Below are positions 37,114 through 39,925 of a stretch of DNA of 64,000 bases, one piece after another; the first letter of the stretch is position 1, and the number at the start of each line of letters is the position of its first letter. This DNA is from Pseudoxanthomonas gei (lineage in GTDB: Bacteria > Pseudomonadota > Gammaproteobacteria > Xanthomonadales > Xanthomonadaceae), in assembly GCF_010119615.1 (NCBI RefSeq), contig NZ_QOVG01000007.1, positions 62,001-126,000 on the forward strand, written 5' to 3'. Below the pieces are notes generated by a model. That model searched no databases. It was not told where the DNA came from and saw nothing but the letters and a program-made list of their open reading frames with translations. The translations under genes and the position numbers were made by a program.

Positions 37114-38028
37114 ATGCGCCGACTGCTGCTTGCCACCTGTGTCCTGCTTCCACTTAGCGCATGCAAGCGCGTCGAAGCGCCGGTCATCCCCGCCCCGGCC
37201 ACGACCGCCGCCGCGCCCGTGAAGGCGGCGGCGCCGGCCCCAGCAAGCGTCGTGTCAGCGCATGACAACCTCAATGCCGTGGCCTGGGTCCAGACCTCGG
37301 TGGAATACCGCGCGCTCAGTGAGCAGACCTACCGCGCCGCCGCCGAGCAGCTGGACAAGGCGCTGAAGGAAAAGAACTGGGACGCGCTGGTGCCCGAGGA
37401 GCGCGGCAACGCCGCCACCGGCCTGAAGCCGGCCGTGGTCATGGACGTCGACGAGACCGTGCTGGACAACTCGCCCTACCAGGCACGCCTGATCCGCGAC
37501 GGCGCCGATTACGACGAGGTGACCTGGGCGCAATGGGTGGCGGAAAAAAAGGCCAAACCTGTACCCGGAGTGGTGGACTTCGCCAAAGCCGCCTCCGCCA
37601 AGGGCGTGACGATCCTCTATATCTCCAATCGTGCCGAGCATCTCAAGGAAGCGACCCTGGCCAACCTGAAGTCCGCGGGCCTGCCAGTCGCCGACGACAG
37701 CGTGTTCCTGGGCTTGGGCACCTTCGTCAAGGATTGCGAGCAGAACGGCAGCGAGAAGAACTGCCGGCGCAAACTGGCCGGGCAGAAGTACCGGGTGCTG
37801 ATGCAGTTTGGCGACCAGATCGGCGACTTCGTCGAGGTGCAGGTCAATACCCGCCAGGGCCGCGACAGCCTGTATGACGAATACAACGACTGGTTCGGCG
37901 AACGCTGGTGGATGCTGCCCAACCCCACCTATGGTTCATGGGAGCCGGCCCTGTTTAACAACGAATGGGCCAAGCCGGCCGAAGCGCGGCGCCAGGACAA
38001 GCGCGCCGCGCTGGACTACGCACCGTGA
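37114..38028 (+). CDS. Acid phosphatase lipoprotein, HAD superfamily subfamily IIIB (e(P4) type)
   Basis: Lipid-anchored phosphomonoesterase, 304 residues. Lipobox LSAC puts the acylated Cys at residue 17, followed by an Ala/Pro linker. The catalytic HAD motif is D111-V-D113-ETVLDN, with YISNRAE (motif II) and FGDQIGDF (motif IV) in the order of class C acid phosphatases such as Haemophilus e(P4), which strips phosphate from NMN and nucleotides. Its TGA overlaps the pyrF GTG start, linking external nucleotide salvage with pyrimidine synthesis; that link is inference. Confidence 0.9.
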
Positions 38029-38738
38029 CGGCGCGCGCCAAACTCGAGTTGGCGCCGCGTGACCGCCTGATCTTCGCGCTGGACGCCCCCAGTCGCGAGC
38101 AGGCGCTGGACTGGGTGGACCGCCTCGGCGATGCGGTGGGCTTCTACAAGATCGGCATGGAGCTGCTGGCGTCCGGCGACTACTTCGCCGTGCTGGACGA
38201 ACTGGCCCGCCGCGACAAGAAGATCTTCGTCGACCTGAAATTCTTCGACATACCCGCCACCGTGGCCGGCGTCATCCGCGGACTGTCACGCTGGCCAGTG
38301 ACCTTTGCCACGATCCATGGCTGGCATGCCGGCATGATGCAGGCCGCCGCCGAGGCCCGTACCGGTGAATTGCGCCTGCTGGCGGTGACGGTGCTCACTT
38401 CTATGGATGCCAACGACCTGCATGAGATGGGCATTTCCGGCGATCCTGCGGCTATCGTCGTCCAACGCGCATTGGCGGCGCAGGCGTGCGGGATTGATGG
38501 GGTGATCGCCTCGGGCCAGGAAGCAGCGCCTCTCCGCCAGGCCTGCGGCCCCGGTTTCTCCATCGTCTGCCCAGGCATCCGTCCCGGGGGTCGGGCGGGG
38601 GACGACCAGAAGCGCACGGTGGGTGCCGCCGAAGCATTCGAGCTTGGAGCTGATGCCATCGTAGTGGGGCGGCCGATCAGCCTGGCCGCCGACCCCCGTG
38701 CAGCCGCGGAGGCAATCCAGCGGGAAATCATCGGGTAA
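38025..38738 (+). CDS. pyrF: Orotidine 5'-phosphate decarboxylase
   Basis: Makes UMP from OMP, last step of de novo pyrimidine synthesis. It has 237 residues: [17 protein letters not shown] (substrate Asp), YKIGMELL, the catalytic [13 protein letters not shown] tetrad region, [21 protein letters not shown], and [11 protein letters not shown] at the phosphate end. The start is a GTG at 38025 inside the phosphatase stop codon (GTGA overlap); a frame from 37965 is only read-through of the preceding gene. Confidence 0.95.
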
Positions 38739-38779
38739 GCTGAAGCAAATCAAACAGTTGCAGCAATTCAATTGAAGTG

Positions 38780-38808
38780 TTGCATTAACTTTTTACGCGA
38801 CCTAAGAT
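38780..38808 (+). promoter_or_regulatory. Sigma70-type promoter of the predicted small RNA
   Basis: TTGCAT (38780-38785), exact 17-bp spacer, TAAGAT (38803-38808). Upstream are the palindrome CAATTCAATTG (38764-38774) and two GTTGCA copies (38757-38762, 38779-38784) 22 bp apart. Expected transcription start near 38815. Confidence 0.7.
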
Positions 38809-38814
38809 GGCCGC

Positions 38815-38911
38815 GTCCGGTCTTGGCCGGAAATGTGCCACAACAATGTCTACCGGCTTCGGCCGGCTTCAGAGGCCCTCTGGTTCCGCAAGGAAACACG
38901 GCCTCTTTTTT
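38815..38911 (+). ncRNA. Predicted small RNA or attenuated leader, about 97 nt
   Basis: Bounded by a good promoter and an intrinsic terminator. Three hairpins: TCCGG/CCGGA (38816-38831); CCGGC-TTCG-GCCGG (38853-38866), a UUCG tetraloop; and the terminator AGAGGCC/GGCCTCT (38871-38906), whose loop contains a nested TTCC-GCAA-GGAA hairpin with a GNRA tetraloop (38884-38895). Between the first two is an unpaired A/C-rich stretch (about 38832-38852) suited to base pairing. No coding frame with a ribosome site is seen. I do not recognise a known RNA family. It could also be a conditional leader of the lipoprotein gene at 39002. Confidence 0.62.
38871..38911 (+). terminator. Intrinsic terminator of the predicted small RNA
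   Basis: AGAGGCC (38871-38877) pairs with GGCCTCT (38900-38906), followed by a run of six T (38906-38911). The 22-nt loop itself folds as TTCC-GCAA-GGAA. Confidence 0.75.
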
Positions 38912-39001
38912 ATGCTGGCGGCCGGCACTGCGCGTGATGGCGGTACTTGTGGACGACCTTCGCAGCCAGCACCATGCGGCTGGATTGGGGACGCCTTGAT
39001 C

Positions 39002-39925
39002 ATGCCGCCACGTTTAGCTTCGCCAACAACAAGCCTGCTCGCCCTGCTGCTGTGCACGCTGGGCGCCTTGACGGGCTGCAAACCCGATGCCAGGCCGCCG
39101 CCGGTGGTGGCCAGCGGTCCCGAGGCAGCCGTCAGGCAGCTGGCCCGACACCTGCATGACAACGACCTGCAAGGGTTCGCCCGCGATGCCGTGCCGGCAG
39201 CCGATTACGCGCGTCTGGAATCCGCCTGGCGCGACGGACGCAGCCGCTGGCCGTTGACGGAACTGCCGCTGGACGACCAGCTGGAGCCGCTGCTCACCAC
39301 CCTGGCCGCACCCGATGCCGAACGCACCCTGCAGCAGGGGTTCAAGCGCAATTTCGCCAACCAGGGCAAGGACCTGAAGGACGCGGCCCGTTCGCTGGGC
39401 CTGTTCGGCGTGCAGTACGTCAAGCGCGAGGGTGTGTTCACCGACGAGGAACGCGTCCACTACGCGCAGGTGATCGCGGCCCTGGGGGACTGGGCCGAAC
39501 GCGCGCCACTGTCTGATCCGAAGCGCGGTGCCGCGGCCATTCCCCCACTGGTGGCGGCCGCGCGCAGGACCGGCCTGAGCACGGCCCAGAGCTTCCACGA
39601 CGCCGGCATGACCGGCAGCCTGCACCGGCTTTCGCCGTTCCTGGCCCAGGCCAAGGCGGTGCTGGCGGACTACGGGCTGCCGCTGGACCGCAGCCTGGCC
39701 GAACTGGACACCACCCTGGTCGAGCAGAAGGGCGATCTGGCCCGGGTCCGCATCGCCTATCCGCTGGGTCGGCGCAGGATCGATACCGTGGTCAGCCTGC
39801 AGCGGCGTGGTGGGCGCTGGTACCTGAGCGACCACCTGCGCCGGGCCGAACAGGCGCTGGCAGCGCCGGCCGGCGAAACGGCCGCGGCCGAAATCCTGCC
39901 GGTCCCTGCCGCCAAGGCCGATTGA
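39002..39925 (+). CDS. Lipoprotein of unknown function
   Basis: 307 residues from the ATG at 39002. The signal sequence ends in lipobox LTGC, then KPD. The rest is mostly alpha-helical (AVRQLARHLHDNDLQGFARDA..., LEPLLTTLAAPDAERTLQQGF), and near the end has a strand-rich piece (RIDTVVSLQRRGGRWYLSDHL). It is probably a conserved xanthomonad protein; no domain recognised. It lies 90 nt downstream of the small-RNA terminator and 37 nt upstream of plsB, with which it may be co-transcribed. Confidence 0.72.
   Translation: MPPRLASPTTSLLALLLCTLGALTGCKPDARPPPVVASGPEAAVRQLARHLHDNDLQGFARDAVPAADYARLESAWRDGRSRWPLTELPLDDQLEPLLTTLAAPDAERTLQQGFKRNFANQGKDLKDAARSLGLFGVQYVKREGVFTDEERVHYAQVIAALGDWAERAPLSDPKRGAAAIPPLVAAARRTGLSTAQSFHDAGMTGSLHRLSPFLAQAKAVLADYGLPLDRSLAELDTTLVEQKGDLARVRIAYPLGRRRIDTVVSLQRRGGRWYLSDHLRRAEQALAAPAGETAAAEILPVPAAKAD

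Follow-up and report, generated by a model that had tools for sequence, protein, structure and literature searches.

The window, a stretch of 64,000 nucleotides from Pseudoxanthomonas gei, contains a 263-bp gap (38739-39001) between the stop codon of pyrF and the ATG of the downstream gene at 39002. Elements from a promoter to a terminator were located at 38780-38911 within this gap, whose length agrees with that given in an earlier reading of the DNA letters (the sequence-only reading). The features of the locus are listed below; counts refer to an alignment of 54 homologous sequences.

37114-38028, + strand: acid phosphatase gene (HAD IIIB; PF03767)
38025-38738, + strand: pyrF, orotidine 5'-phosphate decarboxylase, putative start (PF00215, OMPdecase)
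38748-38760, + strand: IHF-consensus box AATCAAACAGTTG, fitting WATCAANNNNTTR, 67 bases before the predicted start
38773-38783, + strand: T-N-A-N-G-T-R-TTGC element overlapping the -35 hexamer; its other letters vary somewhat
38780-38785, + strand: -35 hexamer TTGCAT; 51 of 54 sequences carry TTG[CT] 34-38 bases upstream
38803-38808, + strand: -10 hexamer TAAGAT, 17-bp spacer from the -35; promoter region conserved
38815-38911, + strand: sRNA of about 97 nt with predicted ends, homologous to sX14/sRNA-Xoo3; RF02233 positions 1-92 align to 38815-38908
38816-38831, + strand: hairpin 1 at the 5' end, CUUG loop; 5 of 6 pairs changed on both sides
38837-38844, + strand: unpaired linker GCCACAAC, probable seed; weighted conservation 0.79-1.00 per base
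38848-38854, + strand: second conserved linker element, GTCTACC (family consensus GTCCTCC), its last two bases opening hairpin 2
38853-38866, + strand: hairpin 2, UUCG loop; pairing in 98.5% of alignment cells, two-sided changes in 1 of 5 pairs
38871-38911, + strand: intrinsic terminator with stem 38871-38877/38900-38906, inner GCAA hairpin 38884-38895 and T-run 38906-38911
39002-39925, + strand: lipoprotein-like gene, signal peptide by eye, no Pfam match

The TTGCAT-17-TAAGAT promoter, the UUCG and GCAA hairpins, the unpaired stretch and the T-run terminator described in the sequence-only reading are all present, and the promoter region is conserved in the homologues. Transcription is predicted to start near G38815, and the sRNA ends 90 bp before the next gene on the same strand. 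The 97-nt stretch has a folding energy of -39.2 kcal/mol (z = -3.24, with 2 of 200 shuffles equally stable), in line with the earlier argument from stability. The gap had also been described as having no coding frame, which is literally untrue: a frame at 38807-39925 stays open across it, in frame with the lipoprotein-like gene. A coding role for the sRNA stretch is nevertheless unlikely, because homologue lengths (78-102 nt) fall into all three classes modulo 3 (23/20/11, n = 54), and a small-ORF reading was rejected on this ground. Open frames themselves were uninformative, with 39, 47 and 42 of the 54 sequences open in frames one to three. Generic consensus scans of the window flagged 0 promoters and 0 terminators at the sRNA, probably owing to the poor fit of the hexamers to the consensus and to a terminator loop longer than the scan allows. 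The case for the sRNA therefore rests on conservation.

Distribution and gene context

Of 61 genomes searched at the DNA level, 29 (the window genome counted) contained the stretch, all 29 from the same genus. The regions after pyrF in the named loci were combined into a 23-sequence alignment (A1), from which a covariance model (R1) was built; R1 matched 239 of 395 family genomes, representing 30 of 54 genera. The model from a wider alignment (R3) raised this to 269 of the 395 sampled family genomes and 33 of 54 genera, which answers the earlier proposal of a covariance search across Xanthomonadaceae. Positive genomes carried one copy each, except for two copies in three of the 269 (G097, G214 and G393). 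R3 gave no match in 126 of the 395 family genomes, including one of the same genus (G010); these misses are no proof of absence, because stricter filters apply above 40 genomes. An order-wide draw yielded matches in 60 of 299 genomes, all 60 belonging to the same family.

In the window, and in most of the Pseudoxanthomonas loci read, the RNA comes directly after pyrF and has the same orientation. A set of 20 loci representing 18 other genera has the acid phosphatase gene upstream of the RNA in 19 cases, the exception being L150, whose contig starts 154 bases before the RNA. pyrF was detected in 8 of the 20 loci; the 12 where it was not include this short contig. A second set of eight loci comprised three from genomes already represented in the first 20 and five new ones (L165-L169); the acid phosphatase gene was found in all five (a weak partial match in L169) and pyrF in four.

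The position behind pyrF would suit an RNA that merely forms the terminal part of the pyrF transcript, with its terminator. This is highly improbable given that the promoter region is conserved along with the RNA, that pyrF went undetected in 12 of the 20 loci (one of which starts 154 bases before the RNA), that another gene intervenes in two Stenotrophomonas-type loci, and that the 5' end of the Xanthomonas homologue is reported as mapped by RACE (PMC3039613). A leader or attenuator of the downstream lipoprotein and plsB genes, as the shared strand and the 90-bp distance to the next gene would allow, has a very slim chance of being correct: plsB lies downstream in 9 of the 20 loci only, as far as stretches of limited length reach, while the RNA persists; a terminator stem and T-rich end occur in nearly all aligned sequences; and the genes flanking the X. 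oryzae RNA are described as differing in orientation (PMC3039613).

In the two Stenotrophomonas-type loci (L047 and L144), roughly 1.1 kb containing the extra gene separate pyrF from the sX14 homologue. By eye, this gene encodes a trypsin-like serine protease, with 274 residues including the stop in L047.

Conserved fold and the cross-paired alternative

The wide alignment (A2) comprised 54 sequences including the window, drawn from 57 sources searched, with none from L049, L051 and L053; 23 of the 54 had been in the training set of the model. On A2, standard pairs filled 98.1% of the cells of hairpins 1 and 2, and 6 of their 11 pairs (19 cells) had changed on both sides, a level matched by 0 of 500 shuffles. 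All seven pairs of the terminator stem had changed on both sides, with 78.7% of cells paired. Across the whole structure this amounts to 13 of 18 pairs and a covariation score of 0.334 compared with 0.178 in shuffles, so that the stems do show the compensatory changes that the sequence-only reading had named as a check. The window terminator ends in six T, and a run of at least five T occurs near the end of 51 of the 54 sequences.

The single-sequence minimum-energy fold of the window copy, as of many homologues, is not the three-hairpin structure. Hairpins 1 and 2 both use CCGG arms, and for this reason they can exchange them to form one long cross-paired stem. The RNA might then be bistable, with switching as its function. 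Consistent with this, only 11 of the 54 sequences have a minimum-energy fold that keeps 80% or more of the pairs of hairpins 1 and 2, and RNAalifold applied to the 23 close sequences of A1 also returned the cross-paired fold, which was used in R1. On A2, however, 88.0% of cross-pair cells were paired versus 88.4% in shuffles (a value reached or surpassed by 445 of 500 shuffles) and 1 of 12 cross pairs had changed on both sides, whereas the local pairs covary beyond shuffles; this comparison is biased towards the local pairs, as A2 had been fitted to their fold. Furthermore, the local helices of the g36 copies have probabilities of 0.59-1.0, and the first 45 nt of the window RNA fold as hairpin 1. 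We regard a bistable RNA as unlikely.

RNAalifold rerun on A2 gave the three local hairpins, and the cross-paired fold of R1 was set aside after the wide alignment and the pair counts. A model with the local fold (R2) outscored R1 in 7 of the 11 places scored by both in named loci and the window, including the window with 98.2 versus 94.9 bits, although the window itself belonged to the R2 training set. R2 scored below R1 in the other four (L050, L052, L061 and L062). Based on the covariation, we adopt a fold in which hairpin 1 is followed by the linker, hairpin 2 and the terminator. This is the three-hairpin drawing of the sequence-only reading, from which the minimum-energy fold of the window copy departs.

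By eye, many homologues have GGA triplets just behind hairpins 1 and 2, as might be expected of a sponge for the RsmA/CsrA protein. Such a function is scarcely likely, considering that these triplets lie outside the hairpin loops and that only two remain in the window copy, one behind hairpin 1 and the other within the terminator.

The Arenimonas copies (L060, L061 and L062) are distant homologues with a different 5' part. By eye, GTCATC/GTCGTC near their 5' end could pair with GATGAC/GACGAC beyond a CCACAAC linker, and such pairing would place the linker inside a larger loop.

Relationship to sX14/sRNA-Xoo3

Schmidtke 2012 is reportedly the paper that named sX14. Rfam at curated cut-offs finds nothing in the window. 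Ten homologous loci were scanned against Rfam at a permissive threshold, and the sX14/sRNA-Xoo3 family (RF02233, gathering cut-off 80 bits) matched four g36 loci, located by the Pseudoxanthomonas-built R1, with 106.9-119.2 bits over the same span as R1. Judging from these matches, genus g36 is probably Xanthomonas. Intermediate scores were obtained for three g26 loci (45.8-53.9 bits) and a g48 locus (47.3 bits). Of two g35 loci, L161 scored 24.0 bits and L165 had no RF02233 match in the permissive scan. The window copy matches end to end (model positions 1-92) with 27.4 bits (E 0.0038 for 501 bases). This is 53 bits short of curated RF02233 membership, so that default Rfam scans miss it.

In a whole-genome scan of the window genome with RF02233, the sRNA place ranked first of four weak matches (next 22.1 bits). 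The known place came first in 9 of 10 genomes scanned in this way (exception G345) and lay above the cut-off in 2 of 10. Matches off the locus reached 26.7 bits, and 5 of 14 control genomes had matches with E up to 1. Because 27.4 bits is barely above this background, the assignment of the window copy rests on the intermediates and the shared locus. The scores form a chain of 119-107, 54-46 and 37-24 bits; pyrF and the acid phosphatase gene (a weak match in L169) lie upstream in the four g36 loci as in the window; and the aligned homologues have the hairpin-linker-hairpin-terminator fold.

The window copy shares with sX14/sRNA-Xoo3 the locus after acid phosphatase and pyrF, the ends, three hairpins, the UGCCAC linker, a similar length, the -35 TTGC and the IHF-consensus box, which is perfect in L166-L169. 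In contrast, the arms of hairpin 1 are CCGA/UCGG in sX14/sRNA-Xoo3 and CCGG/CCGG in the window copy, which also has another hairpin 2 loop and a longer terminator with the inner GCAA hairpin. The g36 linkers read GCCACUC or GCCACGC followed by GUCCACC, whereas the window has GUCUACC, which counts against identity, as does a divergence that leaves 27.4 bits against a cut-off of 80.

The conserved ends, stems, linker and promoter of the 54 aligned sequences strongly support the sequence-only reading in its claim that a promoter and a terminator of its own delimit a discrete sRNA of about 97 nt. The statement in that reading that no described family was recognised fails by the standard it had set, a match to a known Rfam family, since the RNA is a divergent sX14/sRNA-Xoo3, though below the Rfam cut-off. 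The best explanation of these data, and one we consider probable, is an independently transcribed sX14/sRNA-Xoo3 orthologue that would act by Hfq-assisted pairing in trans through the linker. Judged by model matches, the sX14-type RNA is widespread in the family; this wide range, the covariation-supported fold and the probable IHF site are the new parts of the description. An unannotated RNA is now tied to an experimentally known Hfq-dependent sRNA. The Rfam cut-off of 80 hides homologues beyond one genus: 2 of the 10 tested genomes pass, g36 copies alone exceed the cut-off, and syntenic homologues from other genera score 24-54 bits.

Published Xanthomonas sRNAs include an sX/asX series as well as sRNA-Xoo1 to Xoo8, and Rfam contains some of these (PMC4652430, PMC12189769, PMC3039613). 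In X. oryzae pv. oryzae, sRNA-Xoo3 was reported as 93 nt long by 5' RACE and a cloned 3' end and as about 80 nt on Northern blots, with a peak in early growth and a strong drop in an hfq mutant (PMC3039613). The same report describes deletion mutants with no obvious phenotype; loss of this sRNA nevertheless left 18 proteins decreased (seven of them linked to oxidation-reduction, including superoxide dismutase) and eight increased. Its Table 3 places the RNA in Xanthomonas and not in two Xylella strains. In X. campestris pv. vesicatoria, lack of Hfq was reported to lower sX14 accumulation strongly, and ectopic hfq to restore it (PMC3771888); X. campestris pv. raphani was also found to express the RNA (PMC4652430). 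Among the matches listed by our literature search, which covered few subscription papers, there was no report of sX14 outside Xanthomonas. Pseudoxanthomonas is referred to as a non-pathogenic genus (PMC3771888), and the homologue found here offers such a genus for working out the role of sX14.

Three further sRNAs were compared. sX13 (RF02232) is likewise a Xanthomonadaceae sRNA with three stems; it is described as lying downstream of polA, with C-rich apical loops and with abundance and activity unaffected by hfq mutation (PMC3771888). Identity with sX13 was rejected, as the window RNA neighbours acid phosphatase and pyrF, has CUUG, UUCG and GCAA loops and gives no Rfam match at the cut-off. 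sRNA-Xcc1 (RF02221), a small Xanthomonas RNA of 88 nt (PMC2996969), was also rejected, having no Rfam match in the window and being described as integron-encoded (in a title cited by PMC12189769). SorX (RF02784) gave weak matches of 21.6-25.4 bits to g36 copies (cut-off 46.6), probably by chance, and did not match the window even with E values as high as 10 allowed.

Upstream elements, linker and proposed mode of action

The window carries a perfect WATCAANNNNTTR at the fixed distance from the predicted start. The consensus is perfect in 28 of the 54 sequences (window included) and has one mismatch in 19 more, giving 47 of 54, and in 43 of these 47 it stands at -66 to -68. Dinucleotide shuffles (200 rounds) gave 0.25 perfect sequences and 3.6 with at most one mismatch; the sequences are related, so that the count is not a probability, yet they span about twenty genera. 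This conserved box is a probable IHF site. The sequence-only reading had looked upstream for regulated expression and pointed to a palindrome (38759-38784) and to GTTGCA repeats 22 bp apart (38757 and 38779). Both exist in the window and neither is conserved in the homologues; a different upstream element, the IHF-consensus box, is conserved.

In the T-N-A-N-G-T-R-TTGC element, T 38773 and A 38775 are invariant in all 51 sequences anchored on TTG[CT]. Such conservation goes beyond the needs of a plain -35, and the element is a possible regulator site. It forms one half of a perfect GCAATAC-N5-GTATTGC dyad in L044, L071 and L165. As a family-wide operator this dyad was rejected: it is good (at least 6/7) in 7 of 51 sequences and scores 2/7 in the window, and its mean of 3.06 is nearly all explained by the 2.93 that remained after re-dealing the left halves among the sequences.

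Transcription of the sRNA would begin at its own sigma-70-type promoter, with IHF assisting by bending the DNA at -67, and would end at its own terminator, with Hfq stabilising the RNA through the 3' U-run. It may then repress or activate mRNAs in trans via the exposed linker between hairpins 1 and 2 (GCCACAAC, then GUCUACC). Hfq-assisted antisense pairing through this linker is the most likely mode of action suggested by our analysis, and we propose GCCACAAC as the main seed from its conservation. Dependence of accumulation on Hfq has been shown in Xanthomonas; the pairing and the targets are what we infer. The second linker element (GTCCTCC) resembles an anti-Shine-Dalgarno stretch in many genera and not in the clade of the window, and for this reason anti-Shine-Dalgarno pairing is unlikely to be the general mode. 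The 54-sequence alignment marks the linker, hairpin 1 and the IHF box as parts worth mutating.

A wider role can be put forward tentatively: instead of being peculiar to Xanthomonas, sX14 may be a single-copy core sRNA widespread in the family, with an IHF-dependent promoter and GCCACAAC pairing with a conserved set of mRNAs, and could thereby link redox and energy metabolism to the state of the nucleoid and of growth.

Target prediction with the linker, another check named earlier, returned no conserved target. The complement GTTGTGGCA occurs at 23 places in the window genome versus 40 for the reversed control, with no enrichment, and at 20 versus 45 in G026; one place in each genome is the sRNA gene itself. 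argH is the only gene with GTTGTGGCA at its start codon in both genomes (by eye). Of 30 argH starts compared, 29 were readable (all but L238), and only 10 of these 29 retain GTTGTGGCA, which does not support this start as a conserved target. In the window genome (L172) and a close relative (L207), the first codons of argH contain a 10-base linker complement, UGUUGUGGCA, a weak target lead.
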